NCBI GenBank assembly: GCA_020053305.1
Contig: JAGVNJ010000020.1
Location: 1 to 42,294, forward strand
DNA length: 42,294 bases
Direction of reading: 5' to 3'
Origin: Candidatus Edwardsiibacteriota bacterium
GTDB lineage: Bacteria; Edwardsbacteria; AC1; EtOH8
In this document: positions 5,461 to 28,275 of the stretch, piece after piece
Position numbering within the stretch: position 1 is the first letter of the stretch
Layout of the letters: the number at the start of each line of letters is the position of its first letter
Notes under the pieces: model-generated
What the model saw: only the letters and a program-made list of their open reading frames with translations
What the model was told of the DNA's origin: nothing
Database searches by the model: none
Made by a program: the position numbers and the translations under genes

Positions 5461-5478
5461 CGTAAATAGTTCTCATTG

Positions 5479-5931: not shown

Positions 5932-8900
5932 ATGGCTAGAAAAACCAGCGTATGGTTAACCGGCTTGGCGCTGGCCGCGGCTCTGGTAAGCATCTCCCTG
6001 ATAGGCCTGAAAGATGTGGCGGCCTACAAGGCGGATTTCAGCCCCAGCAAAGCCTCACAGCAAAATATTGCCAAGCCCCAGGTGGAGGACCAGGTTAAAA
6101 CCGATGACGGCGTTCCGAAATTCGCCGGCGAAAACAAAATAACGGTGGATGTCCAGCCTTACGCCAATGCCGGCGTCATTGAGTTCTCCAACGGCTACAA
6201 GATCAACACCAGCCAGGGCGAACCCAAGCTTCCGTCCGACCTGAGATACGATTCACCCAAGGGCGACGAGCCGGCCTATTACATCGTTCAATTCAACGGA
6301 CCGGTGCAGGAGGCCTGGCGCAAGGGCCTGGAGAAGGCCGGGGCCGAGGTGATGTTCTACCTGCCCAACTACGCCTTTGTGGTCCGGATGAACGAGGCCA
6401 TCAGGGGCAATATCACCGCCGCCAAGGGCGAGGTCAAATGGACCGGGCTCTATCAGCCGGCCTACAAAATATCCCCCCGGCTGGCTGCCAATGCCAAGGG
6501 CGGAAAGATTCGGGCCTCCATCAGCCTGTTCAGCCCGGAGGATGTGAATTCGGCGATCAGCCAGATAGAGGCCGTCACCGGGCACAAAATATTCTACAAA
6601 TCCTCCTTCGAATGGGAACCGGGCAAGTTCAACAAGAAGATATTTGTTGATATCAGCTTAGACAAGCTTAGCGCCTTAGCCAACATCAGGGGCGTTTCCT
6701 GGATGGAGCCGATGCCGGTGTTCAAAATCTCCAACACCAACACCCAGGTTACCATGCAGAACGGCGTCCTCACCGCCAACGCCAGGCCTTTTTGGGTTTT
6801 GGGCATCAGCGGCGAGGGCCAGATAATCCAGAATTTGGACACCGGCTGCGCCGAGGCCAACGAATACTTCCAGCACTCCTCCAACCGCAAATCGGCCTGG
6901 TACTGGGACAACACCCACCGCAAGGTGGTGGGCCAGCAGCCGGGAGCCCGGGCCGACGAGATCGAACTGGGCTGGGCCGCCGGCACCATGTCAAAGTGGG
7001 GCGACGAATTGGCCAACAGCTACCACGGCACCCATACCGCCGGCAGCAATTGCGGCAATGACAGCTCGATTTTAACCGGCACCGCCGAGGGGATGGCCAA
7101 GCATGCCAAGCTGCTGTTTATTGACGGCGGCGGCGACTCCGGCTCGGTGTTCGGCACCTGGGACATCAACCGGGTGGGCTCCTGGGGCTGGGACAGCGCC
7201 TTCAAATACATCAGCCAGCGGGCCTACATCTCCTCCAACTCCTGGGGCAGCGATGACGGGGGCACTTACAGCAGCAGTTCCATGGAGTCCGACCAGTTCA
7301 TGTGGAGCCACAAGGACTATCTGTGGGTGTTCGCCAACGGCAATACCGGAATCGAAGCGGTGCCGCTGTCCAAGGCCGGCTCTCCGGCCACCTGCAAGAA
7401 CGGGGTGGCGGTGGGGGCCCTGGCGGCCGCCGGGGCCAGCGGGCTGGGCGGGGCCAACACCAAGGCCACCTTCTCCAGCTGGGGAAGATTGCTGGACGGA
7501 CGCTTAAGCCCCACGGTCAGCGCTCCTGGCACCAACATCATATCGGCCGACGGCGACGGGGCCGGCACCAGAACCATGAGCGGCACCTCCATGGCCTGTC
7601 CGATCGTGGCCGGTAGCACCGCCATGCTCCGGCAGTACTTTACCGAGGGCTGGTATCCCACCGGAACCAAGATAGCCGCCAACGGCTTCACCCCCTCGGC
7701 CGCCCTAATGAAGGCCACCCTGGCCATCAGCGGCGACAGCACCACCAGCTGGTGCGGCTCCTTCGTGCCGGACTCCCTGTTCGGCTGGGGGAGGGTCAAC
7801 TTAGACACCGCCCTGTTCTTGTCCGGCAACCAGGTCAAGCTGTTAGTCAACGACAACCGCACCGGGGTCAATACCGGCGAGGCCATCGAATACCTGCTTA
7901 ACATACCCACCGGCGCCACCGGGCTTAAGATATCACTTACCTGGACCGACTACCCCGGCAGCACCACCGCGGCCAAGGCCTTGGTAAACGACCTGGACTT
8001 AGACGCCTACAATCCCGCGGCCGCCCGCTACCGCGGCAACCGCTACGGCTCCGTCCTGCCCAGGCAGTCGGTTACCACCGCCACCGACAACGATAATATT
8101 GACATTTTGGAGGGCATCAAGGTGGTTGCCCCGGCAGTCGGTACCTGGAGGATCAGGGTCACCGGCAAGAACGTGGCCATGGGGCCGCAGCCCTTTGCCT
8201 TGGTGATCACCTATAGGACCGCCCTCCCGGCCATGGGCAAGGTTTATTTAGATAAAAACTCCTACGACACCCCCATCGGCGGCGGGGTGGGCGATACCCT
8301 GCGGATAGAGATTCACGATCCCAACAATGTTCTGGCCTCCAACAATGTGGCGGTGTGGGCCAAGTTCGTGGAGACCCAGCCGGAAACGGTGTCCTGCGTC
8401 AAGGTGGGCGACGGGCTGTTCCGGGGCAAGATAGCCCTGTTCAACGGCAACCCGTTGCACGCCGACGGCCGTCTGAGCGTGGACTATCTCGATTCCGTCA
8501 GGGTGGTGTATGTGGACGCCAGCCCGGCCGGGACCGACACCGCCTACGCCAGCATCAACGGGGGCTCATTCACCATCACCAATGTCCGGGCCGGCGACAC
8601 CCAGCCCCCGGTGGGGACCATGAAGCTGATCATGTGGAACACCTCGCAGAACACCACCAGCCGGGTCTATTATGGCCTGACCACCGCCCTGGGCAGCACC
8701 GTCGGGGTGGATACCCCCTTAATGATCAACAACACCGTTAAACTGACCGGGCTGGCCGCCAACCAGATATACTATTACGATGTGGAATCCAAGGATGCCA
8801 ACGGCAATACCCTGCGGGACGACAACGCCGGCCGCCACTATATGTTCAGCACCGGCGGCGGCAGCGGGCTCAACGATATCCTGATCTGGATGTGGGACGA

Positions 8901-10926: not shown

Positions 10927-10941
10927 TCATTCTTAACCTGA

Positions 10942-10979
10942 AATTGACGCCCCTGACGGCAGGGGCGTCAATTCGTTTT
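10942..10979 (+). terminator. Terminator of the S8 protease gene
   Basis: A perfect 14 bp stem, aattgacgcccctg (10942-10955) with caggggcgtcaatt (10960-10973), has a 4-base loop. It is followed by cgtttt and begins 16 bases after the stop codon. Confidence 0.8.
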
Positions 10980-11245
10980 GGCGCATTGATAGATTGAGAC
11001 CTCAGCGAAACCAACCAGTGAAAGCCTGACGTTGGCCGAGTAGCTGGCATTTCGATACGTTTACACTACTCAATGTCCAGCTGTATCGAGGCCAACGTCA
11101 GGCAGGCGCTCGGCGGATAGTTTCGCAGAAATTTCAGTGTTTGTATAACAGATAATTATAACGTTGAATCCGGGAAATCATGTCAATCCTGTCCAATTTG
11201 GTTCTGGGCTTGTCCAGGTTATGAAGCCGGAAAGCAAGGAAACTG
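10980..11245. other. Gene-free spacer with a long inverted repeat
   Basis: No coding region is seen between the protease terminator and the promoter at 11246. It holds the long inverted repeat at 11005-11126, an AT-rich stretch, and tcaatcctgtcc near 11183-11194, which resembles one arm of the repeat at 30875-30943. Confidence 0.6.
11005..11126. repeat. Long interrupted inverted repeat (about 120 bases)
   Basis: The outer arms gcgaaac (11005-11011) and gtttcgc (11120-11126) enclose a perfect 14 bp stem, gcctgacgttggcc (11024-11037) with ggccaacgtcaggc (11090-11103). Inside it, agctgg (11042-11047) can pair with ccagct (11077-11082); alternatively tcgatac can pair with gtatcga. The nested layout suggests a miniature mobile element or a structured RNA rather than a simple terminator. 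No ORF or target-site duplication was recognised. Confidence 0.65.
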
Positions 11246-11275
11246 TTGACATTTACCGGCGTTATGCCTTATACT
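11246..11275 (+). promoter_or_regulatory. Sigma70-type promoter for the 11320-15528 gene
   Basis: TTGACA (11246-11251) and TATACT (11270-11275) are separated by 18 bases. The predicted start near 11282 leaves a short leader with GGAGGG just before ATG 11320. Confidence 0.75.
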
Positions 11276-11319
11276 AAAGACAGTTATCAAAACGTCCATC
11301 AATAATTTCGGAGGGACCC

Positions 11320-14300
11320 ATGAGAAAATTTTGGTGCATAGCATTCATACTATCCCTGGCAGCCGGCTGGGGACTGGCCCAGTCCGACAGGGCCACCATC
11401 AATGCTGGAGCGTTGAAAACCGACCTGCTGTCGAACAATCTGATGGGGGATACCACCGCCTCCCGGTACCTTCCGGCCGGGTTCTTTCCCTATCACGAGC
11501 ATAAAGCTCTTCTGAAGCTGGGCAGCCTGTGGCTGGGAGGATCCATCGACAATAAGAAACACTTCGGGGTCAGCGCCGGATATATTGATGGAGGCGGCAA
11601 GATCGGCAGCGAATGGAATAACGACGGCAACCTGATATCAGCCGATATTCCGGGCGCGGTTTCGCCCTTGGAAATTTCAGCCGGCTTCGGGGACACCAGC
11701 CATGCCGCCAATCAGGGAATCAAGCTGGGCATCAAGGCCGGCCTGACGGTGCATCAGTGGAGCTATTCGCCGGTAGACAAGTTTTATATCCTGAACTATA
11801 AGCTGGAGAACGTGGGGGGCGAAAAGGTGGACAGCCTGTATGCCGGGCTTTACCATCTGCCCACTGTTTTCCGGGATGCCGTCAGTAACTCCTCCAACCT
11901 TGATTTCTGCGGTTTCGACAGCTCGCCCGATCCGGTCAACGGGGTAAGCCGGGACCTGCTGTGGATCACGGCCGATTCGGTCTCCTGCTCCAACAGTTAC
12001 GGGATCGACCCCCAATTTCTGGGCATCAGATTGTTGCAGGCAGTTGATCCGGCGGGCAGTTCTGCCGGGCTGAACGGGGCTTCCAGCTGGTTCGGTCTGA
12101 GAATGGAACCCTACAGCGACGACGATCCCCTGAACCCCTACAGCAAATATTTTTACCTGAGCCGGAACAGATCGGATGTGGCCGATGTTCAAAAAATAAA
12201 TGCTCCGGTAACCACTTTCGACACCCTCACCCTTGATTTCTTCGGGCAGGTTATCACTGATGTAGAAGGGGTATGGGATGTTAACGACACCAACCATCTG
12301 GGCCTGAACTATTACACCGGAGGATCGTTTGACGCCGAAAGGGGCCTGATCCATCTGGGAACGTCCAAAGCCGACAGACTGGCGCTTATCAACAGCGAGG
12401 AGAGCTGGCCCTGGGACACTTTGACCCTGGCAGTCTCGGTGACCCCGGTGGCCTCGGTGTCCGGGGTATACGATAATCCCCTTGATACCGGCATCAATTA
12501 TTATTCCGGGGGCAGCTTTGTGGCGTCCACTGGGACGATCACCCTGGGCACCCCCTATTACGGCGGCGCCCAGTTGTATGTGGATTATTATTATAAAATC
12601 AACAATGTGGCCGTTTCCTACAACTATTATTTCAACAAGGTCATCACCACCCCCTGGGACAACCTGACCCTGCAGATAAATCCGTATGCCGTTCAGTTCA
12701 TTGAGGGGGTCTACTGGGCCAAGGACAGTTCCTGCGCCGGAACCAATTATTTCACCGGAGGGTCATTTGACCGGTCCAGCGGGATGATCAGCCTGGGTAT
12801 GGCCATCGATGATGACACCATGACAGCGAACAATTATTATACACTGACCCATGATGCCGGCTGGGGGCCTTCTGCTGATCTAATTGCAGTAGATTGGATA
12901 GACCCCGCAAAAATTACTGAGATCTTGTCAGTTTACGACGCTACCAGCACTGATCGCTATCCGGGTGGCAGCTATGATCCGTTTACTGGTTTGATAACTC
13001 TGGGAAATCCTTTTCCGGATACCACTTATAACGAGGTGTGGATAAATTATCGGTATCTATCCACTCCGAACGTCTGGGTGAAAAACTACAAGCCGGAACT
13101 TTCGACCAAGAATGTCCTGGCCTCGGTCGGCCCCTGGACCATGGATCCGGGCGATACGGCCCGGGCGGTCTTTGCCGTGGTGGCGGGAAACACATTATCC
13201 GAACTTCAGGCCGCCGCGGATTCAGCTCTTTATATCTGGAACAATCCATCAGCCACTATTTCGGCCCTGGCCGGATCGGTTTCCGGTATGGTGGAAAGGA
13301 CCGCCGGAAGGGGGCCGGTCTCCGGGGCCAAAGTAGTGGCCTATCAAGGGGTGGCGCCCATTGACTCGGGCTATGCGGATAACAACGGACGGTATTTCAT
13401 CAGCAATATCTCCGGCGGACTTTACGACTCGCTGGTGGCCTCGGCGGTGAATTATCTGCCTGCCAGCTTGAGTAATGTTACCGTTACCAATGAGCAGAAT
13501 AATGGAGGAAATAACTTGACCCTGGTATCCTCCCGGGCCGACCTGTCGGGCAGCATCGTCCGGGCCGATGGGATCACTCCGGTAAAGATGGCTCGGGTCG
13601 ATATCCGGGGCGCCAATATTGATTCCGCATTTTCCGATGTTTTCGGCTATTATCAGTTTTCCGGTTTGAAAATCACCGCCGGGGACACCCTGATCTTTAC
13701 TGCCCCTTACTGCCTGACCGACACGGTGCCCGGCATCATCTTGGCCGAGGATTCCGCTTCGGCCTGCAACCATACCATGCATTCCCTGACCGGCTGGATA
13801 GACGGCCTGATAACCAAGCTGGACGGCATCACTCCGATCGCCGGGGCGTCGGTCAAAGCCGCCAGACCGGCCGATACCGTTTCCACCATAACCGGAGGGG
13901 ACGGCAGATATAGCCTGGGCGGACTGTCCGCAGATAATTACAGTATTCTGGTTTCCGCCAGCTGGTTTGCCTCCGATTCGATAAGTGGTATAGCTTTGGC
14001 GGCCGACTCCACGGCCCAGGCGAACCTGTCTCTCAAGCAGGCCAACAATATTTCCAGCCTGATATGGCAGAAGAAATCTACCATGCCTTCCTGGCGATAT
14101 GGCTCGGCCTCGGCTATGGCCGGCGGAAAGATCTACTTATTTGGCGGGCGCGATTATCTGGGCGCAACCAATACCGTTTTTTGCTACGATCCGGCAGCCG
14201 ACACTTCCCGGGGCGATCCCTGGAATAGTCTGGCCGATATGCCGATTGCCCGTTATGGACTGGGAGCGGCTGCGGTGGGGGATACCATCATCTATGTGAT

Positions 14301-15528
14301 CGGCGGCTACGACAACGACAGCCTGCCGTTGTCGGCCATTCAGGCCTACCTGCCGGCTTCAAACAGTTGGGTAACCGGGCTGGCCAGTATGCCTACTCCC
14401 AGGGCGTTTCTGGGAGTGGCTAGCATTTCTGACAGTATTTATGCGGTTGGTGGCTTGAATTCAAGCATCGCTGGTTTGTGTACTGTAGAAGTATATTTAC
14501 CCCAAAGCAACAGCTGGGTTACAGTAAAATCACTTTTTGGCGGAGCATCGTGGGGTCGGGCGGGTATGGGTTTAGTATCCGTTGACAGTTTTGGGGTTAA
14601 AAGAATTCACTCGGTGGGTGGGCAAAGACTGGGTGGAGCTTATTTGAATATTCACAATAAATATAACCCGATTACTAACGCTTGGATTAGTCGCTCAACC
14701 GTTCCCTGGTATATTGCCTTCGGCACTGCTGTAAATCTGAACGATTCGTTATATATTATTGGCGGTCGTAATGATGGTGGTTTCTCTAACAAAGTAGGTG
14801 TTTATAATAATTTTGCCAATACTTGGGCTACAGCCACAGATTATCCTTCAGTTTCAGCCTACCCCTCTTCTATGGCGATGGATTCCGTGGGTATCTGGGT
14901 TTTAGGCGGCAAAACGGCCGATACGTATATTTCCGATGAAATATATTTCGGCTACAAGGCGGGCGGGATAACCGGCCTGTGCAATACCACCACCAACGGT
15001 CCGGTGATAGGCGCTTTGGTCAGCGCCATCTCCGGCTCAAAGGTTAAAAACACCGAAGCTACCGATAATAGCGGCTACTATACTTTGGCCGGACTGGAGC
15101 CGGGCACATACGATGTCCGCATCTACAAAGCCGGGGTGATGGACACCGTTATATCCCAGGTGGTGGTCCGTTGGGGCAAGGTCACTAATGCACCAACCGT
15201 TACCGGTGTGGCTGGCGGCAAACCAAGCGCGGTGATTTCAACTTTCGCGTTGCATCCGGCGTATCCCAATCCGGCCAGAGGGGTCTGCAATATCAATTAT
15301 CAAATACCGTCCAATTCCAGAGTGGAGCTTGCAATATACAATGTCCTGGGCCAAAAGGTAAAAACCTTGGTTTCGGGCAACAAATCTGCCGGCAATTATT
15401 CAATCAAGTGGGCAGGAGACGACAGCCGGGGCCAGAAGGTCGCCAATGGCATTTATATTTACAGATTGCAGATGAACTCCGGAATGGAAAATAAAACCGC
15501 CACCAAAAAGCTGGTGCTGCTCAGGTAG
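11320..15528 (+). CDS. Secreted repeat protein: four NYY.GGSF repeats, carboxypeptidase-regulatory-like domains, Kelch propeller, FlgD-like sorting tail
   Basis: A 1402-residue exported protein of unknown function. Signal peptide MRKFWCIAFILSLAAGWGLAQ. Residues about 300-600 hold four copies of a 60-85-residue repeat with the core NYY.GGSFD..TG.I.LG (cores near 327, 389, 473 and 544), often preceded by W.WD.LTL and GVY; I do not recognise it as a named family. Four carboxypeptidase-regulatory-like beta-sandwiches follow (about 652-730, 740-815, 826-900 and 1215-1290; G.YY..GL pattern). A Kelch-type propeller (about 915-1215) contains YLFGGRD, YVIGGYD, YAVGGLN, YIIGGRN and WVLGGK strands. The FlgD-like tail is about 1310-1402. 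The stretch coding much of the Kelch part (14420-14900) is visibly A/T-richer. GGAGGG supports the start. Surface display or carbohydrate/protein binding is inference. Confidence 0.85.
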   Translation: MRKFWCIAFILSLAAGWGLAQSDRATINAGALKTDLLSNNLMGDTTASRYLPAGFFPYHEHKALLKLGSLWLGGSIDNKKHFGVSAGYIDGGGKIGSEWNNDGNLISADIPGAVSPLEISAGFGDTSHAANQGIKLGIKAGLTVHQWSYSPVDKFYILNYKLENVGGEKVDSLYAGLYHLPTVFRDAVSNSSNLDFCGFDSSPDPVNGVSRDLLWITADSVSCSNSYGIDPQFLGIRLLQAVDPAGSSAGLNGASSWFGLRMEPYSDDDPLNPYSKYFYLSRNRSDVADVQKINAPVTTFDTLTLDFFGQVITDVEGVWDVNDTNHLGLNYYTGGSFDAERGLIHLGTSKADRLALINSEESWPWDTLTLAVSVTPVASVSGVYDNPLDTGINYYSGGSFVASTGTITLGTPYYGGAQLYVDYYYKINNVAVSYNYYFNKVITTPWDNLTLQINPYAVQFIEGVYWAKDSSCAGTNYFTGGSFDRSSGMISLGMAIDDDTMTANNYYTLTHDAGWGPSADLIAVDWIDPAKITEILSVYDATSTDRYPGGSYDPFTGLITLGNPFPDTTYNEVWINYRYLSTPNVWVKNYKPELSTKNVLASVGPWTMDPGDTARAVFAVVAGNTLSELQAAADSALYIWNNPSATISALAGSVSGMVERTAGRGPVSGAKVVAYQGVAPIDSGYADNNGRYFISNISGGLYDSLVASAVNYLPASLSNVTVTNEQNNGGNNLTLVSSRADLSGSIVRADGITPVKMARVDIRGANIDSAFSDVFGYYQFSGLKITAGDTLIFTAPYCLTDTVPGIILAEDSASACNHTMHSLTGWIDGLITKLDGITPIAGASVKAARPADTVSTITGGDGRYSLGGLSADNYSILVSASWFASDSISGIALAADSTAQANLSLKQANNISSLIWQKKSTMPSWRYGSASAMAGGKIYLFGGRDYLGATNTVFCYDPAADTSRGDPWNSLADMPIARYGLGAAAVGDTIIYVIGGYDNDSLPLSAIQAYLPASNSWVTGLASMPTPRAFLGVASISDSIYAVGGLNSSIAGLCTVEVYLPQSNSWVTVKSLFGGASWGRAGMGLVSVDSFGVKRIHSVGGQRLGGAYLNIHNKYNPITNAWISRSTVPWYIAFGTAVNLNDSLYIIGGRNDGGFSNKVGVYNNFANTWATATDYPSVSAYPSSMAMDSVGIWVLGGKTADTYISDEIYFGYKAGGITGLCNTTTNGPVIGALVSAISGSKVKNTEATDNSGYYTLAGLEPGTYDVRIYKAGVMDTVISQVVVRWGKVTNAPTVTGVAGGKPSAVISTFALHPAYPNPARGVCNINYQIPSNSRVELAIYNVLGQKVKTLVSGNKSAGNYSIKWAGDDSRGQKVANGIYIYRLQMNSGMENKTATKKLVLLR

Positions 15529-17317: not shown

Positions 17318-20300
17318 ATGAAAAAGCACATAGCGATCATCTCGGCCATCCTTTATTTTTCGACGGCGGCTCTGGCCGATGTTGACGTAATCAAATCCGA
17401 TGAGTCCGGCATGGTCATTGAGTTCGGGGCGGGGAATATAAAAACCTCTCCGGTGGTTGCCGGCAATAAAACCTATCACCGAGTATCGGTGGAGGGCTGC
17501 CTCAATACCATTGACTGCGGGAAGCCTGCTTTGCCGCAGTACAGCGTAATGCTGGCGGTACCTTACAATGCTTCGGCAATCATCACCCGGATTGAGATGC
17601 TGGACAAGGAATATATTCCCATTGTCCCCCTTCCCAGCCCGGCCCCGGCCGAAATGGCCGAGGGCTTTGTGATTGACCAGGCCATATATTCCGGGAGGGC
17701 CCAGTACCCCTCTCAGGCGGCCGGCTTGAGCAACCCGGGCTGGGCCGGGAACACCAAGGTGTCGACGGCAACAATTTTCCCGGTCGTTTTCGATCCGGCC
17801 AATGCCCGGGTGATCTTCAGCCGGAGGATCAGGGTCACCATTGAATATAAAATAATTGGGACCTATCCTCAGGGAGGTCGGCCGGCCCAAAGCCAGATAG
17901 ACAGGGTTTTGCTTGGAGCCGTAGCCAACCCCCAACAAGCTGAAAAATGGGGCTACCGGGCTTTGTCCAAGGCCGGCCAAATATCTTGTGATACCATGCC
18001 GTATAAGATGTTTATCAAAAACGACGGCATCTATAAAATAGGCTATAACGACCTCCTGGCCGGGGGAATAAATCCCGATCTGACGGACCCCCGGTCGTTG
18101 AAAATAATCCATAAGGGCCGGGAGGTCGCCCTGTATTTTAAAGGACAGTCGGACGGGGTTTTCGATCCCGATGATTATTTTGAATTTTACGGGCAGGCCG
18201 GCCGAGGGGACTCCACCTATTACCATCAGTTTTCCAATGCCAATGTGTATTACCTGTCTTTGACCGGATCATTCGGCGCCCGAATGACGGAGGAGGACGG
18301 AACCCCGGTTATATCGGGTGTGAATCCGGCCAGCCATTTTTCGGAGACACTCCATTTTGAAAAGGACAGCCTGTTTTACCGGCTGAGCAGCTGGAACAGC
18401 GATCAGCAGGATCGGTGGTTCTGGAAAAGGGTGGATTACCCGGGAAGCGCGGCTATAAGTCTCGACATTCCCTCCCCGTATATTTCTTCCGGGGACAGCT
18501 TCATCATCAAGGGCAGCCTCCACGGGATCACCACAGACTGGCATCATGTTCAACTTCTGCTGAACGGGTATTTGATAGCCGACCTCACCTGGTATGAGCA
18601 GACCGAAAAAGAATTCATTGCCAGATTCCCGGCGACAGCAGTCATTAACGGGGCCAATAGTTTGACGGTCAGACACGACACCACTTCCACTTCCACTACC
18701 AGCAACAAGATACTGATCAACTGGTTTGAGATAGACTATAAAAGGAGCTTCAATGCTCCCGCCGGCAATCTGACTTTCATCTCCGATGCGAAAGTCAGCG
18801 ATTCCCTGGTGCAGTACACCATAACCGGATTGCCGACCTACACAACCGAGGTTTATAAGCTGGGTGCAAGCAAGATCGTAGGCTCGACGATAACCCCGGG
18901 GCCCAGCGGCCTGGACTATAACCTGTCCTTTCAGGACAGGATATACGGCAATGAAAAATATATGGTTATCCGGAGCGATAATAAAAGAAAACTTTCTTCG
19001 GGGGATCTGGTGCCGAACAACCCGTCAAACTTAAGGGATCCGGCATTCGTCGGCACCAGATATGTCGTCATAACGTCGGATGAGCTGAGGGCCTCGGCAG
19101 AGAAGATGGTCCAGGCCCGGAGATCAAAATATCCCAATGCGGTTTATGCACTGACAACCGATATCTATGATGAGTTCAACGATGGAATACCATCGGACAG
19201 GGCAATCAGGGATTATCTTAAGTACGCATTTGACAACTGGTCAATCCAGCCGGAATATGTCTTATTGTTGGGCGACGGCAGCTACGACCCCCGGAATGTC
19301 ATCGGGAACAGCAAGCGCGACCAGGCGCCGGTCCATCTCACCAGGACGGACTATTACGGAGGGGTAGCCGATGATGATTATTTTGTTAGGGTCAATGGCG
19401 ATGATTTTCTGCCTGATATTTCAATAGGAAGGCTGCCGGTAAACTCCAACCAGGAATTTACCATTTGGGAAAACAAAAGGCAGTTGTATGACCAACGGTT
19501 GTTCCTGGACCGGTGGCATAAGGACATCCTTTTTGTTGCCGGCTGGCCCCTCAATATTGAGGATAATTTTTACAGTCCTAGCGATAAACTGGCGGCCATG
19601 GTTTCCCCGGTATACGATATAGCCAAGGTATATCACGGTTCCGCCTTTCAGAACAAGGAGGACCTGATAAACCGCCTAAACCAGGGAGTGGCGGTAGCGG
19701 TGTTTTACGGGCATGGCGGGGCGCAGCTGTGGTCCCACGGGAGCTTCTTTTGGTATTATGATGTTCCCCGGCTGAATAACTGGGGGCGGTGGCCCCTGAT
19801 AGGGTCTTTTACCTGTAATTCAGGCGCTTTTGAGAGCCCCTTATATATCTCCCTAAGCGAATCTTTCATTTTCAACAACGGAGGGGCCATCGGGGTATAT
19901 GCCAGCAGCGGAGCTTCTTACGGGGACAGCATCACCGGCTGTGCTTTGGAAAATACCTTTATGGATGCCTGGGACAGGAAGGGATTCCGGAATATCGGCG
20001 ACATTGCGTTGTCTTCTAAATACAGCCTGGCCGGAGGACTGCCGCCATCCGGCCAATCCCTGGATATGCTGGTAAGCTATAATCTGCTGGGCGATCCGGC
20101 TGTCCGGCTGGCCCTTCCGGATACCGGGTTGAAAATTGAAATATCGCAGACGGCTGTTTTACCAGGCGATTCCACCCAGGTAAAAATAACCGGGCCTTTT
20201 GGTTCCGGCCTGGCGGTGATTTCTTTATATGACGCTGGCCGGAGAATTGTTCTCCAGAATGCCTTCTCCGCCTCGGCGGGGCAGGCTCAAACTTACATTA

Positions 20301-22117
20301 CCATTCCCGATTCGGCTCTTCCCGGCCAGGCTTACTTGAAAATTTATTTGAAGGATGATAATTCCGATTGGGTGGCAGTGGAGTATTTGGGCATAAGCCG
20401 GCCGGCCATATCAGGAATCAAGATAATTCCTTCCGCCCCCACCGATATCGACAGCATACAAATCACCGGGATCGTCCAGAGCCTTTCGGGTCTCGATTCG
20501 GTGTGGTGCCGATGGCACTGGGGAAGCTACAACGATACCACCGACACCGGAGGCGTTTTTAAGCAGGCCCTGATGTCCCTGTCCGGAGATTCTGTCAGGC
20601 TGAACAACGGACTGTACCTGACCGGGTTGGAGGGAAACTACCCTCCTCTATCCGAATTCTATCTGGTCTTCCGTATTTCGGCCCAGGATACCTTAGGCAA
20701 TATCACGACCGGACGCTGGGAAAGACACAAGATACTGCGCCGGGCCGATCTGACTTCCTCCAGTCAGGCTCAGGGATCGGTTTACCTGGGCGGCAAGAGG
20801 GTGTTGAGCATAAGCGCCTCAATCAAAAACCAAGGGGATATCTATGCCGATTCGATCCCGGTATTTTTCTATCGCTCGGGCGACGATTCCCTATTGGGTT
20901 CCGGCATTATCGACACTATAGCCGCCAGGAAGGAAAAGAAGCTAACCATGCCATGGACGATTGAGGGGGAGTTCACCCAGCTATATTACCGGATAGACCC
21001 ACTCCGGACTCTGGCGCTGCCGTATCCCCAGGAAGATACTACCAACGATAATTCAGTGGCCTATTGGGTGCCCTCCCAGGATTTCTATTATTATCAATTG
21101 GATATGAGGGGCACCAATCAGGACACGCTTGATTATTACTCAAACATCAGGGCCGTTTTCCCTGATTCCTGCCTGCAAGACAGCGCGGTGGCCATTATCG
21201 GCCGGAAGTTGTATGATATAAACAGTATCGCCCAGTCCGGCTTGATCCCCTTTGACAGCCTGGGGCAGGTTTATTTTGTGGGACTGACGGATTCCTCCCG
21301 GACTTTTGATAACGGTCGGGAGCTTTGGGTGTCACTCAAGCTGGATAATATCGACAGCACTACCGATTTGCACAACCTTAAACTCTTCAGGCATGACGAT
21401 ATAACCGGAATGTGGCAACTGATCCCCTCGCTGATTGACAGCAACTATATCTCCGGATTTTCTTCTCAGCCCGGAACATTTATTGCCATGTATTCAACGG
21501 ACACCACCGGACCGCAGATAACCGCCAAGGTGGACCAGCGGGCGGTAGGCTGGGGGCAGGTTATCAGCGTTCCCGATCCCCAATATTCGGTCATGATCGA
21601 GGACCGGGATGGGATAAATATCGATTCAATATGGCTTAAATTGGATAACCAGATTGTGAACAAGTCAGATTACAGCCTGACAATTAATCCTGATAAAAGT
21701 CACAGTGTTCAGCTGGTATATTCCGCCAAACTGGAAAATGGAAGGCATAGCCTGGAAGTTGGAGCGGCTGATAATTTGGGCAACAAATCCTCTCTCAAAA
21801 TATTCAATGATGTAAAAATAGAATTCTCTCTTAAAGAAATCGCAAATTATCCAAACCCGGTTGACGGTGATGTTACGACCTTCTATTTCTATGTGGGCGA
21901 TGTGGCCGACAGATACGAGCTCAAGATATACACTGTTGCGGGAAGGCTGCTGAAAACCTTCAAAGGGGGGGTGACCTCCGGGGTGCGCACTTTTGAATGG
22001 GATCTGTGCGATGAGAACGGAAGGGGCATAGCCAATGGGGTTTATTTTTATAAATTTACTGTTTCCCAGAACGGAAATGTTCAGGAGAAGACCGGAAAGA
22101 TGGCGGTTCTCCGATAA
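17318..22117 (+). CDS. Gingipain-family (C25) cysteine peptidase, PorU-like, with FlgD-like C-terminal domain
   Basis: A 1599-residue exported protein. Signal peptide MKKHIAIISAILYFSTAALA, then a gingipain-propeptide-like region to about residue 190. A segment typical of long C25 proteins follows (YKMFIKNDGIYKIGYNDL, DPRSLKI, DYFEFYGQ). The C25 catalytic domain spans about 575-930 (VLLLGDGSYDPRN to NLLGDPAVRL), with candidate catalytic His799 (FYGHGGA) and Cys833 (GSFTCNSGAF). Their spacing of 34 is close to the 33 of RgpB. Ig/CARDB-like modules follow and a FlgD-like tail ends the protein (about 1507-1599). In type IX secretion, PorU is a C25-type sortase with its own C-terminal domain, encoded next to porV. 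The next gene here is PorV-like, so a sortase role is plausible; an ordinary secreted gingipain-like protease is the alternative. Confidence 0.88.
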   Translation: MKKHIAIISAILYFSTAALADVDVIKSDESGMVIEFGAGNIKTSPVVAGNKTYHRVSVEGCLNTIDCGKPALPQYSVMLAVPYNASAIITRIEMLDKEYIPIVPLPSPAPAEMAEGFVIDQAIYSGRAQYPSQAAGLSNPGWAGNTKVSTATIFPVVFDPANARVIFSRRIRVTIEYKIIGTYPQGGRPAQSQIDRVLLGAVANPQQAEKWGYRALSKAGQISCDTMPYKMFIKNDGIYKIGYNDLLAGGINPDLTDPRSLKIIHKGREVALYFKGQSDGVFDPDDYFEFYGQAGRGDSTYYHQFSNANVYYLSLTGSFGARMTEEDGTPVISGVNPASHFSETLHFEKDSLFYRLSSWNSDQQDRWFWKRVDYPGSAAISLDIPSPYISSGDSFIIKGSLHGITTDWHHVQLLLNGYLIADLTWYEQTEKEFIARFPATAVINGANSLTVRHDTTSTSTTSNKILINWFEIDYKRSFNAPAGNLTFISDAKVSDSLVQYTITGLPTYTTEVYKLGASKIVGSTITPGPSGLDYNLSFQDRIYGNEKYMVIRSDNKRKLSSGDLVPNNPSNLRDPAFVGTRYVVITSDELRASAEKMVQARRSKYPNAVYALTTDIYDEFNDGIPSDRAIRDYLKYAFDNWSIQPEYVLLLGDGSYDPRNVIGNSKRDQAPVHLTRTDYYGGVADDDYFVRVNGDDFLPDISIGRLPVNSNQEFTIWENKRQLYDQRLFLDRWHKDILFVAGWPLNIEDNFYSPSDKLAAMVSPVYDIAKVYHGSAFQNKEDLINRLNQGVAVAVFYGHGGAQLWSHGSFFWYYDVPRLNNWGRWPLIGSFTCNSGAFESPLYISLSESFIFNNGGAIGVYASSGASYGDSITGCALENTFMDAWDRKGFRNIGDIALSSKYSLAGGLPPSGQSLDMLVSYNLLGDPAVRLALPDTGLKIEISQTAVLPGDSTQVKITGPFGSGLAVISLYDAGRRIVLQNAFSASAGQAQTYITIPDSALPGQAYLKIYLKDDNSDWVAVEYLGISRPAISGIKIIPSAPTDIDSIQITGIVQSLSGLDSVWCRWHWGSYNDTTDTGGVFKQALMSLSGDSVRLNNGLYLTGLEGNYPPLSEFYLVFRISAQDTLGNITTGRWERHKILRRADLTSSSQAQGSVYLGGKRVLSISASIKNQGDIYADSIPVFFYRSGDDSLLGSGIIDTIAARKEKKLTMPWTIEGEFTQLYYRIDPLRTLALPYPQEDTTNDNSVAYWVPSQDFYYYQLDMRGTNQDTLDYYSNIRAVFPDSCLQDSAVAIIGRKLYDINSIAQSGLIPFDSLGQVYFVGLTDSSRTFDNGRELWVSLKLDNIDSTTDLHNLKLFRHDDITGMWQLIPSLIDSNYISGFSSQPGTFIAMYSTDTTGPQITAKVDQRAVGWGQVISVPDPQYSVMIEDRDGINIDSIWLKLDNQIVNKSDYSLTINPDKSHSVQLVYSAKLENGRHSLEVGAADNLGNKSSLKIFNDVKIEFSLKEIANYPNPVDGDVTTFYFYVGDVADRYELKIYTVAGRLLKTFKGGVTSGVRTFEWDLCDENGRGIANGVYFYKFTVSQNGNVQEKTGKMAVLR

Positions 22118-22148
22118 CCATCCAATGAAAACCTTAATTGGTGTTGAA

Positions 22149-23147
22149 ATGAAAAGGTTCGTTTTAATTACCCTGATTATATGGGGTTTCAGCGACATAG
22201 ATGCCAGGGCGGAAAACTACGGGGGGGAATTCCTCAATCTGCCAGTGGGCCCCAAAGCCATGGGTATGGGGGGGGCCTTCGGCCCGGTGGCCGATGACGC
22301 CAGCGCCTTATACTGGAATCCGGCCGGACTGGGCAGGCTGAAGACCCCCGAGATAATGCTGGCGCACACTGTCTTATTTGCCAACTTGGCCAGCCATGAC
22401 TATCTGGCCATTATCTGGCCAATGAACAGAAAAATAACAGTCGGGGCCGGCTGGATCAGACTGGGGGTTGATGATATCCCCAGGTTTTCATATACAGTGG
22501 GAACACCATCTATCGGCTCTTTCGGCGATAATGAAAACGCTTTTCTTTTTTCCGCCGGCGCGTCGTTTGACAAGATCACCTTTGGCAAGCCCTGGAAAAT
22601 TCATCCGGGTGGCAGCCTCAAGTTAATCTATAATAAACTGGATGACAGACAGGCAACCGGACTGGGGGTGGATGCCGGAATTTTAATCGATATTAACCTG
22701 GCAGAATGGTTCATCCGCCGGGCCGAATCCCGGCCTTTGATGGGCATGCTTCCGGTAGCGATCGAGAATTCCAATTTGGGAATGTTTACCCTGAGCGCCG
22801 TAGTCCAGGATGTCGGAGGCACCAGTATATCCTGGAACACGGTCAGGCAGCACAGCGATGTTCGCCCGGCAATATACAAAATGGGCCTGGCCTATCGGCA
22901 GCCGGTGAACATATTCAGAAGCACCGTGACTCTTGCCTGGGAGGGATCGACCGAGAATTATCAAAAGGGAAGGCTGGGGACAGAACTGAAATACAGGAAT
23001 ATACTGGCTTTTCGGGCCGGGCGGGAACAATCCCAGCCAACCTTCGGGGCCGGATTATCCATCTGGCGGTTCAAGGTTGATTATGCCTATAACAGTCATG
23101 ATCTGGGCAACACCCACCGGGTGGGAGGAAGTTATAAGATGAAGTGA
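22149..23147 (+). CDS. PorV/PorQ-family outer-membrane protein
   Basis: A 332-residue protein with signal peptide MKRFVLITLIIWGFSDIDARA followed directly by the family signature (FLNLPVGPKAMGMGGA, then DDASALYWNPAGL). The rest shows alternating amphipathic strands expected of an outer-membrane beta-barrel. PorV (LptO) works with PorU in Bacteroidetes to receive type IX cargo at the outer membrane; related PorQ-like proteins also exist. I place the start at ATG 22149 because it gives a clean signal peptide. ATG 22125 and an upstream frame opening at 22035, overlapping the previous gene, are possible but lack a Shine-Dalgarno site or signal-peptide logic. It lies 31 bases after the C25 gene and is probably co-transcribed with it. 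Confidence 0.85.
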   Translation: MKRFVLITLIIWGFSDIDARAENYGGEFLNLPVGPKAMGMGGAFGPVADDASALYWNPAGLGRLKTPEIMLAHTVLFANLASHDYLAIIWPMNRKITVGAGWIRLGVDDIPRFSYTVGTPSIGSFGDNENAFLFSAGASFDKITFGKPWKIHPGGSLKLIYNKLDDRQATGLGVDAGILIDINLAEWFIRRAESRPLMGMLPVAIENSNLGMFTLSAVVQDVGGTSISWNTVRQHSDVRPAIYKMGLAYRQPVNIFRSTVTLAWEGSTENYQKGRLGTELKYRNILAFRAGREQSQPTFGAGLSIWRFKVDYAYNSHDLGNTHRVGGSYKMK

Positions 23148-23254: not shown

Positions 23255-23283
23255 ACTGTTAAATGCAATTACAGAGGGTGTGC

Positions 23284-23826
23284 ATGCCGGTAAAAACTGT
23301 GTTCATGGACCGGGACGGGACCATTAATGTTGACACCAATTACGTCAATTCCCTCCAACAGCTAAGTTTGTTGCCAAACTCCGGACGGGCCATCAAACTG
23401 CTCAATGAGGGAAATTATAAAGTTGTGGTGGTCAGCAACCAGTCGGGAGTAGCCCGGGGATATCTGAACCTTAAAACACTGGGCGCCATTCACCGGAAAT
23501 TGCGGCGGCTGCTCAAGAGGGAGGGGGCGGTTCTGGATGCCATCTATTATTGTCCTTACCACCCTGATGAAAAGACCCCCTGTCGCAAGCCCGATATCGG
23601 GATGGCCCGGCAGGCTGAAAAAGACCTGAAGATCAGCCTCAAGAAATCATACATGATCGGCGACAGCCGGGCCGATATAGAGTTCGGGAACAATATCGGA
23701 GCCAAGACCATTCTGGTGCTTACCGGCCAGACCAGGGGAAGCGAACCCTGGCTGAAAAAATATAAAATCGACTGCGTGGCTGATGACCTGTTGGGGGCGG
23801 CCCTGTGGATAACCAGCGACAGGTAA
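23284..23826 (+). CDS. gmhB: D-glycero-D-manno-heptose-1,7-bisphosphate 7-phosphatase-like HAD phosphatase
   Basis: A 180-residue cytoplasmic HAD-superfamily phosphatase that removes the 7-phosphate from heptose bisphosphate on the way to ADP-heptose for LPS core. The nucleophile motif is FMDRDGT (Asp9, Asp11), with VVVSNQSG and GDSRADIEFG as the second and later HAD motifs. ATG 23284 is chosen because GAGGG precedes it at good spacing and the motif then begins at the usual position; an upstream non-ATG start at 23263 is less likely. The zinc-loop region reads CPYHPDEKTPCRKP: compared with the usual C.H...C.C pattern only two cysteines remain and the histidine is shifted by one residue. Histidinol phosphatase is the alternative within this family, but the following glycosyltransferases favour GmhB. 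Confidence 0.85.
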   Translation: MPVKTVFMDRDGTINVDTNYVNSLQQLSLLPNSGRAIKLLNEGNYKVVVVSNQSGVARGYLNLKTLGAIHRKLRRLLKREGAVLDAIYYCPYHPDEKTPCRKPDIGMARQAEKDLKISLKKSYMIGDSRADIEFGNNIGAKTILVLTGQTRGSEPWLKKYKIDCVADDLLGAALWITSDR

Positions 23827-23829
23827 ATT

Positions 23830-24576
23830 ATGAACAATATCACAGCAATAATAATCTCCAGGAACGAAGAGCATAGTATCTCCCAGGCCATAGCCAGCCT
23901 GAAAGGCTTTTCGGAAATTATCGTTATGGATTCAGGCAGCACCGATAAAACCGTTGAGACAGCAAAATCTTTGGGGGCCTTGGTATATCAGACCGATTGG
24001 CCCGGCTATGCCCGGCAGCGTCAGAGGGCCATCTTGAAGGCAACTAACGAGTGGGTGCTATTTCTGGATGCCGACGAGGCGCTGGATGATAAGCTGAAAC
24101 AGGAGATTGGAAGAATATCCCCGGCCGATCCGGCCAGAGGGTATTTTATTAAACGGGACAATTATTTCATCGGGCAAAAGATAATCCACTCCCGGTGGGG
24201 CAACGATTGGCAGCTAAGGTTGTTCCATAAGGGATCAGCCAGCATACCGGAGGTCTATATTCACGAAGGAGTGTTAATAAACGGTCCGACCGGGAGGCTG
24301 GTCAGCGGCTGTATAAAACACCATACGGTTCCGAATCTTTCCCGATATTTGGAAAAGATCAATGAATATACCTCCCTGGAGGCCAAACAGAAGATCCGGG
24401 AGGGTCGCCGGTTTTCATCTTTCAGGTTGCTGTGGGAGCCGCTGGCGGAGTTTTGGAAACTGTATATTGTCCTCCAGGGGTGGCGCGAGGGTATCCGGGG
24501 CTTGGCCATAGCCGCCTTGTCGGCCTTGGGGCGTTTTGTGGTGACGGCCAAGATCAGGGAGGCCGGAAGTGGATAA
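23830..24576 (+). CDS. Family 2 glycosyltransferase (WaaE/KdtX-like), first of three
   Basis: A 248-residue GT-A enzyme that probably adds a sugar to the LPS/LOS core at the cytoplasmic face of the inner membrane. The N-terminal half is a classic family 2 domain (AIIISRNEE, VMDSGSTDKT) with the metal-binding motif DAD in FLDADEAL. The C-terminal half (LWEPLAEFWKLYIVLQGWREG) is like WaaE/KdtX core glucosyltransferases. It begins 3 bases after gmhB and overlaps the next gene by 8 bases. Donor and acceptor cannot be read from the sequence. Confidence 0.88.
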   Translation: MNNITAIIISRNEEHSISQAIASLKGFSEIIVMDSGSTDKTVETAKSLGALVYQTDWPGYARQRQRAILKATNEWVLFLDADEALDDKLKQEIGRISPADPARGYFIKRDNYFIGQKIIHSRWGNDWQLRLFHKGSASIPEVYIHEGVLINGPTGRLVSGCIKHHTVPNLSRYLEKINEYTSLEAKQKIREGRRFSSFRLLWEPLAEFWKLYIVLQGWREGIRGLAIAALSALGRFVVTAKIREAGSG

Positions 24577-25399
24577 AATATCGGTAATGCTCAATACCTA
24601 TAACGGCGGGCAGAAACTGGTCAGCTGTTTGGAATCGGTCAAATGGGCCGACGAGATAGTGGTGATAGATTCCGGCAGCAGCGACGGCTCGGTGGAACTC
24701 ATCAAGAAGTATACCGACAATTATTTCCACAATCAGTGGCCCGGCTATCTGGCCCAGCGGGAATTTGGCATGCAGCGCTGCTCAGGGGAATGGATATTGA
24801 TCCTGGACCAGGACGAGTATGTGACCGAAGAGTTGAAGGGCAAGCTGCTGGACATGTGTAAAAACCCGGGCGATTATCAGGAATACAACGCCGGGTGGAT
24901 CAGAAGGATCGAACATTTCTGGGGCAAGCAAATCAATTACGGCAACTATAATCCCAGTTCCCAGCCCCGCCTTGCCCGGAGGGGGAAATGCCGCTGGACG
25001 GGATTCGCCCACACCTGGATGGAGGTGGAGGGCGGGGAGAAAAAGATTCTCAGGATCAAAGAACCTCTATGGCACGATGCCTATAACACCCCTTTTGATT
25101 ATTTCAACAAGATAAACCGTTATTCCGAACTGGATGTGGAGGAGCGCCTGCCCAAGGGATACAACCCCAGCCTGGCACGGGTAATATTTTCCCCATTGGG
25201 GATGTGGTGGAAATGCTTCATTGTCCATAAGGGATACCGGGACGGGGCTCACGGTTATATGAATGCCACCTCCATGATGGCCTATTGGTTCTTCCGACTT
25301 TCCAAGGTCTGGCACCGCCGGTGGCTGGAGAAGAATCGGCCCGATACCTGGGAAGCCTACCGGAAGAAAGCCGCTAAAGACCGGGACGGTGGGTCATGA
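24569..25399 (+). CDS. Family 2 glycosyltransferase (WaaE/KdtX-like), second of three
   Basis: A 276-residue paralogue of its neighbours. The family 2 fold is shown by VMLNTYNGG, VVIDSGSSDGS and WPGYLAQREFG, with DQD in place of DAD as the DxD motif (ILDQDEYV). Its C-terminal part (LGMWWKCFIVHKGYRDG) matches the WaaE-like tail and ends in a basic extension. It starts at GTG 24569, inside the end of the previous gene, with GGAGG a few bases upstream, and shares an ATGA stop/start overlap with the next gene, so translation is probably coupled. Likely role: sugar addition to the LPS core. Confidence 0.88.
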   Translation: MDKISVMLNTYNGGQKLVSCLESVKWADEIVVIDSGSSDGSVELIKKYTDNYFHNQWPGYLAQREFGMQRCSGEWILILDQDEYVTEELKGKLLDMCKNPGDYQEYNAGWIRRIEHFWGKQINYGNYNPSSQPRLARRGKCRWTGFAHTWMEVEGGEKKILRIKEPLWHDAYNTPFDYFNKINRYSELDVEERLPKGYNPSLARVIFSPLGMWWKCFIVHKGYRDGAHGYMNATSMMAYWFFRLSKVWHRRWLEKNRPDTWEAYRKKAAKDRDGGS

Positions 25400-26160
25400 G
25401 GATATCGGCTACGGTGATCACTAAAAATGAGGGAAGCAATATCGAACGGTGCTTAGCCGCATTGGATTTTGTCGATGAGATAGTGGTGGTTGATGCCGAA
25501 AGTACGGACCGTACGGTGGAGTTGGCCAGGAAATATACCGAGCGGGTCTACATCAATCCATGGCCGGGACATATCCAGCAGAAGAATCATGCCATAGAAT
25601 TGGCGCAGGGCGAATGGATCCTTTCCATAGACGCCGATGAGGTAATCACTCCGGATCTGAGACAGGAGATCCTGGCTGTCAAGAATAATCGTGATCAGGC
25701 CATAGACGGTTATTATATTCCCCGCCGATCCAATTTTATCGGAAGATGGATAACCCACTGCGGATGGTCTCCCGATTACCATCTTCGATTGTTCCTGAAG
25801 AGCAAGGGGCGGTTTGGCGGCATGAACCCGCACGATATAGTTGTTTTGAAGGGGGCTGCGGAATATTTCAGGCAGCCCATGTTGCATTACACCTATCCAT
25901 CGTTAGAGATATATTTATCTCGACTGAACAGCTACACCACCATTGCCGCCAAGGAACTGAAGAGCCGGGGAAAAAGTTTCAAGCTGCGCCATATAATACT
26001 GTCGCCTCTGGCCACTTTCATTAAAATGTATGTGATCAAAGCCGGGTTCCGGGACGGATGGGAGGGATTTATGTTGTGCGTTCTTTCGTCATATTACGTG
26101 CTGGTAAAATATCTGAAGCTTTGGGAACTGAACCTTGGGGAGATACCCGGTGAAGATTAA
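25396..26160 (+). CDS. Family 2 glycosyltransferase (WaaE/KdtX-like), third of three
   Basis: A 254-residue paralogue with SATVITKNEG, VVVDAESTDRT, WPGHIQQKNHAIE and DxD motif SIDADEVIT. The tail LSPLATFIKMYVIKAGFRDG again matches WaaE/KdtX-like core glycosyltransferases. It starts in an ATGA overlap with the preceding gene, and its last bases overlap the GTG start of the following glycosyltransferase. Three adjacent enzymes of one family suggest duplication followed by specialisation for successive core sugars; that is inference. Confidence 0.88.
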   Translation: MRISATVITKNEGSNIERCLAALDFVDEIVVVDAESTDRTVELARKYTERVYINPWPGHIQQKNHAIELAQGEWILSIDADEVITPDLRQEILAVKNNRDQAIDGYYIPRRSNFIGRWITHCGWSPDYHLRLFLKSKGRFGGMNPHDIVVLKGAAEYFRQPMLHYTYPSLEIYLSRLNSYTTIAAKELKSRGKSFKLRHIILSPLATFIKMYVIKAGFRDGWEGFMLCVLSSYYVLVKYLKLWELNLGEIPGED

Positions 26161-27259
26161 GATTGCGCATATCTGCAGTTCGGCTTCCTGGGGCGGCATG
26201 GAGATGATAGTAGCCCGCCTGGCCTATTTGCAGAAAGCCCGCGGTTATGAGGTAATGGTTGTTTCGGGTAAAGATACTCCACTGTCCGCGAAATGTCAGG
26301 ATCTTGGCATTGATAACCAACCGATCATTGCCAACAGCTTTTTGGGCTTGAGCGGCTTTCCCTGTTTTCTGAAATATGTAAAAAAGACCGAACCCGATAT
26401 AATTCATGTCCACTATTCAAAGGATCTCAACCTGGCTGTGCCGGTTAAACATTTAACCGGGGGAAAGATCGTTTTTACCAAACATCTGGGATCCTATATC
26501 AAAAAAAATGATCCCTGGCACCAGTTTGTGTATCGAGGGGTTGACCGGGCTACGGCTATCTCCCGCCTTATAAAAAACAATCTGATCGAAACGACCCCTC
26601 TGACCGAGAAGAAGGTCGACATTGTTTATCTGGGAACGGATACGGACCGATTCAAGCCCGATCCCGCCCAAAGGGACTCCGTCCGAAAGGAAATGGAGAT
26701 ATCCGATGCTTCGATCCTGATCGGAATGATGGGCCGGATATCCTATGGCAAGGGGTATGAGGATTTTATCGAGATGGCTCAAACCTTAACCGAAAAGAAG
26801 ATAGAATTCCTTTTTATCGGCGGACACAGCAAGAATGAAGATGATTATGGGAATAAAATCGAAAGGAATATTAAGGGTAAACTGAGTCTCAGGGCCCATC
26901 TGACCGGATTTAAAGATGACCGGGAGAGGTATCTGCAGGCCCTGGATATATTTATATTTCCCTCTTATGCCGAATCCTTCGGCCTGGCACTGACCGAGGC
27001 CATGGCCTGCGGGTTGCCCTGTGTGGCTTACGGCAAGGACGGGGTACTGGATATCATAGAAGACGGTAAGGACGGCCTGCTGGCCGAAGTAAAGAACGTA
27101 AAAGACCTGATCCAAAAAACAAACATTCTTTGCAATGACGAGGGCTTGAGGATCAAACTGGGCAGGGCCGGTCGAGAAAAGGTGATCAATGAATTTTCGG
27201 ACTCGCAGATGTTACAGGGTTTTGAACGGACCTATAAAATCGCAATGGGCGAACAATGA
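26150..27259 (+). CDS. Family 4 glycosyltransferase
   Basis: A 369-residue GT-B retaining glycosyltransferase. The N-terminal domain begins KIAHICSSASWGGMEM, typical of family 4; the C-terminal domain has GRISYGKGYEDF and the nucleotide-sugar E(x7)E motif in AESFGLALTEAMACG. GTG 26150 is preferred as the start because GGGGAGA lies 6 bases upstream; a TTG at 26135 is in frame but has no such site. It overlaps the previous gene by 11 bases and shares an ATGA overlap with the heptosyltransferase gene. It probably transfers a sugar onto LPS/LOS core or a related surface glycan. Confidence 0.87.
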   Translation: MKIKIAHICSSASWGGMEMIVARLAYLQKARGYEVMVVSGKDTPLSAKCQDLGIDNQPIIANSFLGLSGFPCFLKYVKKTEPDIIHVHYSKDLNLAVPVKHLTGGKIVFTKHLGSYIKKNDPWHQFVYRGVDRATAISRLIKNNLIETTPLTEKKVDIVYLGTDTDRFKPDPAQRDSVRKEMEISDASILIGMMGRISYGKGYEDFIEMAQTLTEKKIEFLFIGGHSKNEDDYGNKIERNIKGKLSLRAHLTGFKDDRERYLQALDIFIFPSYAESFGLALTEAMACGLPCVAYGKDGVLDIIEDGKDGLLAEVKNVKDLIQKTNILCNDEGLRIKLGRAGREKVINEFSDSQMLQGFERTYKIAMGEQ

Positions 27260-28275
27260 AGCTTAAGGCCGATAATATATTGGTCCTCAGGATGAGCGGC
27301 GTGGGGGATGTGCTGTGGACCACCCCCTTTTTGGCTAATCTTAGAAGGGGCTATCCGTCAGCCCACATCTCCTATATAGCCAAAGATTTCTGTGCCCCGG
27401 TGTTGTATAATAATCAGGATGTTGATGAGGTAGTGATATTTAAAAAAGATAAAATCTTCAAACAGTTATCGTTCCTAAGAAATCTCAGAAAGTCCGGATA
27501 CGATCTGACCATAGACCTGGTGGGGACGCCTCGGACGGCTATCCAGTCTGTCATCTCCGGGGCAAGGAACAGGATCGGCTTTGATTTCGGATACCGGAGA
27601 TTCTTTTACAATCATCTGTTGAATGCCAGGGCTGCAAACTATGGCCATGAGGTAGAGTTCAATCTTTCGGTGCTGGAATACTTGGGGGTTCCGGCATCAC
27701 GAAAAGACCTGGTCTTCAATCTGACGGATGAGGAAAAGAAATACCGGCAGGGCATATACAGGTCTTTAGCTTTAGACGGAGGCCGTATTGTCGGCATGAT
27801 CCCCACCGGAGGGTGGGCCTGCAAGCGCTGGCCAATTGATAATTATATAGCTGTGGCCAACGCCATATTATCCGGGCCCAATAATAAAATACTGCTATTC
27901 TGGGGGAGCCCTTCGGAAGAAGCCGATGCAAAAACCATTTTAGCAGCCTGCCCCTCGTCAAAGCTGATCCCCAAAACCAGCCTGCGGCAGATGGCTGCAT
28001 TGCTGGCCGGCTGTGACCTGGTAATAGGCAATGATTCCGGCCCTCTACATATAGCCACCGCCTTCAAGATCCCGGTGATCTCTTTTTACGGGCCGACCGT
28101 TCCCAAGAGCCAGGGCCCCTGGGGTCAGGGGCACGTTGTGCTTCAGGACAAGCAGCTGGGATGTCTGGGATGCAACAGGATGGACTGCCGGGACCCCAAA
28201 TGTATGGCCGGGATCCATCCCGACAAGGTCATCAAGGAAGCAGAAAGATTGCTGGGGCGTGTTAAAAAATCTTAA
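27256..28275 (+). CDS. Family 9 glycosyltransferase (ADP-heptose:LPS heptosyltransferase-like)
   Basis: A 339-residue GT-B enzyme of the WaaC/WaaF group, which transfers heptose from ADP-heptose to inner-core LPS. Seen in the sequence: the N-terminal NILVLRMSGVGDVLWTTPF, the mid-domain MIPTGGWACKRWP, and the C-terminal GNDSGPLHIATAF with YGPT, all conserved in family 9. A Cys-rich stretch (CLGCNRMDCRDPKCM, near residues 305-320) is common in the heptosyltransferase II group. The presence of gmhB in the same operon supports heptose as the donor. The end overlaps the endonuclease III-like gene by 17 bases. Confidence 0.9.
   Translation: MKLKADNILVLRMSGVGDVLWTTPFLANLRRGYPSAHISYIAKDFCAPVLYNNQDVDEVVIFKKDKIFKQLSFLRNLRKSGYDLTIDLVGTPRTAIQSVISGARNRIGFDFGYRRFFYNHLLNARAANYGHEVEFNLSVLEYLGVPASRKDLVFNLTDEEKKYRQGIYRSLALDGGRIVGMIPTGGWACKRWPIDNYIAVANAILSGPNNKILLFWGSPSEEADAKTILAACPSSKLIPKTSLRQMAALLAGCDLVIGNDSGPLHIATAFKIPVISFYGPTVPKSQGPWGQGHVVLQDKQLGCLGCNRMDCRDPKCMAGIHPDKVIKEAERLLGRVKKS

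Follow-up and report, generated by a model that had tools for sequence, protein, structure and literature searches.

The attachment complex of P. gingivalis is known experimentally and consists of PorU, PorV, PorQ and PorZ (PMC5562754; PMC8545088). Within it, PorZ is made up of two seven-bladed propellers and an uncleaved tail and brings A-LPS to PorU (PMC8545088). The T9SS was found in no clade except Bacteroidetes by Abby et al. 2016 (PMC4793230), and another account limits it to the Fibrobacteres-Bacteroidetes-Chlorobi superphylum (PMC11205867). Our literature search turned up no relevant paper on PorU2, PorV2 or T9SS genes in Edwardsbacteria.

Machinery of this kind is usually described only from Bacteroidetes; Edwardsbacteria carry the ordinary copy and a second set. 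The second set lies in the stretch of 42,294 nucleotides analysed here (the window), which is an entire contig of a genome of 2.59 Mb in 77 contigs (99% complete). For comparison we sampled ten Edwardsbacterota genomes from four genera, and absences in genomes rest on profile searches throughout. We think it reasonably likely that the window set serves a T9SS-like export route as a second attachment complex, working beside the canonical pair in Edwardsbacterota; its products would probably cut exported proteins and fix them to the cell surface.

The C25 protein and its PorV-like neighbour

The central gene (17318..22117, + strand) encodes a protein of 1599 residues that ORF, profile, tree and fold identify as a C25 cysteine peptidase related to PorU and PorU2, which we call window-type. 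It opens with a Propeptide_C25-like domain at residues 21-177 (17378..17848, + strand; Pfam PF08126, 54.3 bits), followed by the catalytic region at residues 582-931 (19061..20110, + strand; Pfam PF01364 Peptidase_C25, 234.6 bits), and closes with a type A or FlgD-like C-terminal tail at residues 1511-1589 (21848..22084, + strand; TIGR04183, 34 bits against a cut-off of 23; FlgD_ig). His799 lies within YGHGG and Cys833 within SFTCNSG. Both residues are invariant in an alignment of 20 Edwardsbacterota C25 proteins, and they align with the dyad region of P. gingivalis PorU and with gingipain. The original prediction of a 1599-residue C25 protein with this dyad and its own tail is thus borne out by the ORF, the Peptidase_C25 and TIGR04183 matches and the dyad alignment together. 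The source genome encodes five C25 proteins. A single-sequence scan of genome contigs with the whole protein gave no matches, and an alignment of 19 C25 domains was used for that search.

PorU is the best NCBIfam match of the window protein (NF033707), at 319.4 bits, below the cut-off of 420, the best stretch spanning profile positions 8-743 of 1095; the score against PorU2 (NF052324) is 200.6 bits, below its cut-off of 450. By sequence, the protein scores 72 bits to PorU versus 28 to gingipain. With a predicted structure of 1161 residues and moderate confidence (pLDDT 74, pTM 0.57; domain orientation unused), Foldseek placed dimeric latent PorU (6za2) first, over about 1100 columns at an E value of 2.9e-35, and gingipain second at 5.1e-19. 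We also scored the tail on profiles built from external PorU tails and local cargo tails. The two profiles fit it equally (mean PorU-minus-cargo score +0.5); canonical PorU tails score +13 toward the PorU profile, and cargo tails average -43 in a leave-one-out comparison, with overlap from a few atypical ones. On these scores the tail leans toward that of the machinery (a sortase) rather than that of cargo.

The next gene (22149..23147, + strand) encodes a 332-residue outer-membrane barrel of the PorV/PorV2 family, assigned from profiles, a homologue-supported start, fold and tree. Its longest ORF begins at 22035; homologues favour the ATG at 22149, and with this start the gap to the C25 gene is exactly 31 bases, in keeping with the spacing first proposed. 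The barrel scores 111.8 bits against PorV2 (NF052325, cut-off 325) and 77.8 bits against PorV_fam (NF033709, the PorV/PorQ family, cut-off 90), which a Zixibacteria relative exceeds at 103.9 bits. Its AlphaFold model (pLDDT 82.7) has a FadL-like predicted fold nearest to PorV: the top two PDB matches are the T9SS PorV chains 8gl6_F and 6h3i_F (TM-scores of 0.68 and 0.67), the best being PorV from the SprA complex, and FadL and TodX rank behind them. The same two genes are adjacent, once per genome, in all ten Edwardsbacterota genomes, down to 40% identity, so their arrangement is not due to chance.

In our main tree of 91 C25 domains, a canonical PorU clade (support 100/99) unites P. gingivalis PorU with proteins of Bacteroidota, Ignavibacteria, Zixibacteria and Gemmatimonadota and with a second Edwardsbacterota protein, encoded on contig C57, and leaves the window protein outside. 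The window-type clade comprises Edwardsbacterota and Caldifarciminota (WOR-3) sequences, two Zixibacteria proteins and one from Calditrichota; curated PorU2 and its relatives make up a third. Window type and PorU2 form a single clade at 95/86 with long-branch paralogs left out, a node that falls to 39/80 with them in, and the window protein is sister to PorU2 rather than inside it. The outer limits of the window type are not firm, as the group split in a quick tree once a further Calditrichota sequence, left unlabelled, was added. The barrel tree independently agrees and is congruent: window barrels group with PorV2 and with the barrels of Zixibacteria and WOR-3 in a single clade (99/99), where the window barrels are sister to PorV2, not within it, and a canonical PorV clade (100/99) holds an 824-residue Edwardsbacterota protein. 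A place among gingipains had been named beforehand as an outcome against the prediction; in the C25 tree RgpB groups with Chloroflexota and Acidobacteriota C25 proteins, away from the window protein. We rejected a gingipain identity for the latter on its lower sequence similarity, different tree position and weaker fold match.

Two further observations concern relatives of these proteins. Related C25 proteins occur in Chloroflexota MAGs (L082-L084, L087, L089, L091, L093, L094, L102, L104), and the one such genome searched for SprA (G013) gave no match. The source genome also encodes a PorV2-like barrel on contig C14 (L027:7297-10628), which scores 154.9 bits to NF052325, groups with PorV2 in the tree and is preceded by a 763-residue protein with no Pfam or NCBIfam match.

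The pairing could also be read in terms of transport. The C25 protein would then be an ordinary secreted protease, used as gingipains are, and the barrel its private shuttle, as with PorP/SprF-like proteins and their type B cargo. A gingipain-type prodomain joined to a tail would suit such a protease, several other PorV-family genes of the genome adjoin tailed proteins, and type B signals have known paired shuttles (PMC12618676). Against this stand the protein's occurrence once in each genome of the phylum, along with conserved partners, the full-length PorU-type architecture and the tree position apart from RgpB; the tail is nearer to the sortase than to cargo tails, and the canonical PorU encoded in this genome has the prodomain too (74.9 bits). 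We therefore regard this reading as unlikely, though the best placed of the alternatives.

A tailed propeller and polysaccharide genes

A gene that ends 4 bp short of the C25 gene (15784..17313, + strand) encodes a 509-residue protein with a signal peptide, a beta-propeller of about seven blade repeats as read from the alignment, and a type A tail at residues 415-507 recognised by tail profiles. In Edwardsbacterota (where a contig end truncates it in L062 and L033) and in two WOR-3 genomes, an ortholog immediately precedes the C25 gene; none lies beside the Zixibacteria pair. Sequence similarity to PorZ is confined to the tail. Propeller, C25 protein and barrel form a three-gene set conserved in Edwardsbacterota and WOR-3, and the likeness of the propeller to PorZ is one of layout.

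Farther upstream (388..15528, + strand), four exported proteins of 893, 792, 1664 (a subtilase) and 1402 (with kelch repeats) residues bear TIGR04183/FlgD_ig tails and are possible substrates. The suggestion that the pair sits next to its likely cargo gains no support here: the immediate upstream neighbour is the propeller, a conserved member of the set, and the other tailed neighbours are among the genome's 66. Elsewhere in the genome, five more PorV-family genes adjoin or lie near tail-bearing proteins (L020, L024, L025, L026, L028), suggesting a family of dedicated shuttles.

Downstream of the barrel lie a gene for a GmhB-type heptose bisphosphate phosphatase (23263..23826, + strand; HAD-IIIA; NF006506, 172 bits, cut-off 178), syntenic in two genera, and a run of glycosyltransferase genes assigned by Pfam and NCBIfam (23830..28275, + strand): three GT2, one GT4 and one heptosyltransferase-like GT9. 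A second genus shares synteny over parts of this polysaccharide run. The WOR-3 pair sits among GT4, GT2, Wzx-like and Wzy-like genes, and of the Zixibacteria window-type genes one lies by an epimerase, Wza and Wzz and the other by GmhA and CpsB/CapC; polysaccharide genes thus flank window-type loci in three phyla. Around the C57 PorU and at two PorU loci of Zixibacteria, the neighbours are genes such as those for prepilin peptidase, a radical-SAM protein, RecG and aconitase. In a tblastn count, polysaccharide genes lay within 6 kb of 7/10 PorU2 loci versus 6/57 canonical PorU loci (p = 0.0002, an optimistic value since related PorU2 loci share synteny and the counts are phylogenetically non-independent). 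The window-type count of 5/5 is circular, the queries having been taken from those loci, and was left out of the test.

Cleavage need not entail anchoring. The C25 protein might strip tails and release its cargo to the medium, with the glycan genes nearby by coincidence, a reading that draws on the fact that no transpeptidation-specific residue is known and that the canonical PorU of the genome is already available for anchoring. It has to contend with the conserved propeller partner and with the recurrence of polysaccharide neighbours across the window-type and PorU2 clade, and we give it somewhat less credence than the private shuttle.

The canonical pair, the export route and a proposed role

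The canonical PorU of the source genome, on contig C57, matches NF033707 over its full length at 618.6 bits (cut-off 420), and about 34 bp after it comes a PorV-family gene of 824 codons. This pair occurs once per genome and always adjacent in 10/10 Edwardsbacterota genomes. The window C25 protein is not this organism's PorU, and the identification of the window pair as the phylum's porU-porV was dropped: that pair is on C57, and the window pair falls in a separate clade by PorU2/PorV2. That the window pair is nevertheless the canonical one, merely diverged, as its top NCBIfam match to PorU (319 bits) and a PorV neighbour 31 bp downstream might suggest, is very improbable, unless the C57 pair is inactive, given a C57 PorU above the curated cut-off, with its PorV and orthologs in 10/10 genomes, and given that the C57 protein and not the window protein lies inside the PorU clade (100/99).

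The genomes of Zixibacteria, WOR-3 and Calditrichota that bear window-type genes also encode a canonical PorU. A Zixibacteria genome has a canonical PorU/PorV pair besides its window-type genes. Two WOR-3 genomes and one from Calditrichota encode PorU-like proteins, one accompanied by a PorV; measured by path length in a quick tree, these proteins lie closest to canonical PorU. Because carriers in all three groups also have canonical PorU or PorU-like proteins, we take the window type to be a second system and not a replacement.

Several features of the canonical locus are worth recording. The PorV beside canonical PorU is about 820-850 residues long in Edwardsbacterota (L019:9816-12290 on contig C57; L067-L070, L072-L075) and 729 in one Zixibacteria genome (L149:12325-14514); these long proteins match PorV at both ends and carry an insertion of about 490 residues with no Pfam match. 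The canonical pair is followed by a conserved gene for an inactivated, M6-like metalloprotease that bears a tail and FG-GAP repeats (L019:6518-9778, with equivalents in other genomes; 405.6 bits to NF052323, cut-off 600), and the next gene is DUF5683-like. Many SprA genomes also encode a protein of about 1000-1280 residues of which a short stretch matches positions 595-690 of the SprA model; in Edwardsbacterota this protein lies near canonical PorU (L019:1236-4661).

SprA/Sov is encoded on contig C8 of the source genome (358-360 bits, cut-off 200), exceeds the cut-off in 10/10 Edwardsbacterota genomes and is matched in 36/38 FCB genomes sampled, in 35 of them over the cut-off. With the 66 type A (T9SS) tail matches of the source genome, this sustains the view of a PorU-like and PorV-like module outside Bacteroidetes. 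Lack of any SprA/Sov translocon had likewise been named beforehand as an outcome against the prediction, and it was not what we observed. Within the window we identified no T9SS genes beyond the attachment set. The search proposed for the translocon and motor succeeded for SprA/Sov; PorL, PorM and PorN gave no GldL, GldM or GldN profile matches. More widely, GldM, GldM_1st and GldN profiles found no PorM/PorN-type motor-ring proteins in about 25 non-Bacteroidota genomes: GldN was found in 7/9 genomes labelled Bacteroidota and 0/25 others, and PorM (two profiles) and PorN only in Bacteroidota-type genomes. The GldM and GldN profiles are effective in Bacteroidota yet miss a Bacteroidales MAG (G035) with a clear SprA, so a diverged motor may be present. 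Across a candidate phylum and its relatives, SprA, PorU and PorV occur together with type A tails by the dozen but without detectable PorM/PorN, which puts the power source of export in question.

For the second attachment complex that we favour, we propose a route modelled on Bacteroidota, in which proteins with type A tails would leave by Sec and then SprA/Sov. The PorV-like barrel would keep them at the outer membrane, and the C25 enzyme, staying on the surface via its own PorU-like tail, would cut the cargo tail with Cys833 and His799 and link the resulting C-terminus to a surface glycolipid. By analogy of layout with PorZ in P. gingivalis, the tailed propeller may present the glycan. The set would act alongside the canonical C57 PorU/PorV, not in its place, and because it works beside that pair it probably serves another class of cargo or another glycan. 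More tentatively, several FCB-related phyla may share a T9SS-like export without the PorLM/KN motor and ring, and each cell may run two attachment complexes in parallel, of which the second (tailed propeller, window-type C25 sortase and PorV2-like barrel) would fix separate proteins to a different glycan made by neighbouring genes. A second conserved sortase-barrel pair by polysaccharide genes predicts two C-terminal anchors, and the uncharacterised PorU2/PorV2 families gain genomic context.

Comparison with known systems

The closest described counterparts are PorU2 and PorV2 (NF052324 and NF052325), families annotated as putative in Bacteroidota. They are sister to the window proteins in both trees and share with them a long, tailed C25 protein whose N-terminal part is of the PorU type, an adjacent PorV-family barrel and a PorU also in the genome. 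The window pair differs in scoring far under both cut-offs and in gene order, the C25 gene preceding the barrel, whereas PorV2 precedes PorU2 in Bacteroidota. Propeptide_C25 is present in the window protein and absent from the PorU2 proteins examined, and the propeller partner, unlike in PorU2/PorV2, accompanies the window type, in Edwardsbacterota and WOR-3 only.

With canonical PorU/PorV, whose PorU strips type A tails and attaches cargo to A-LPS, the window pair shares the catalytic dyad, a prodomain-type N-terminus, a tail, a barrel neighbour and a PorV-like predicted fold, but it forms a separate clade, scores under the PorU cut-off and has the true pair elsewhere in its genome. The window protein shares with the gingipains RgpB and Kgp the C25 catalytic fold and a prodomain; it is closer to PorU by sequence and fold and takes a different position in the tree. 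In its components the window set resembles the P. gingivalis PorU:PorV:PorQ:PorZ complex, with a sortase-like C25 protein, a PorV/Q-type barrel and a tailed beta-propeller encoded by three adjacent genes. It differs in having one propeller instead of the two of PorZ, to which it is similar in the tail only, and a single barrel in the locus.
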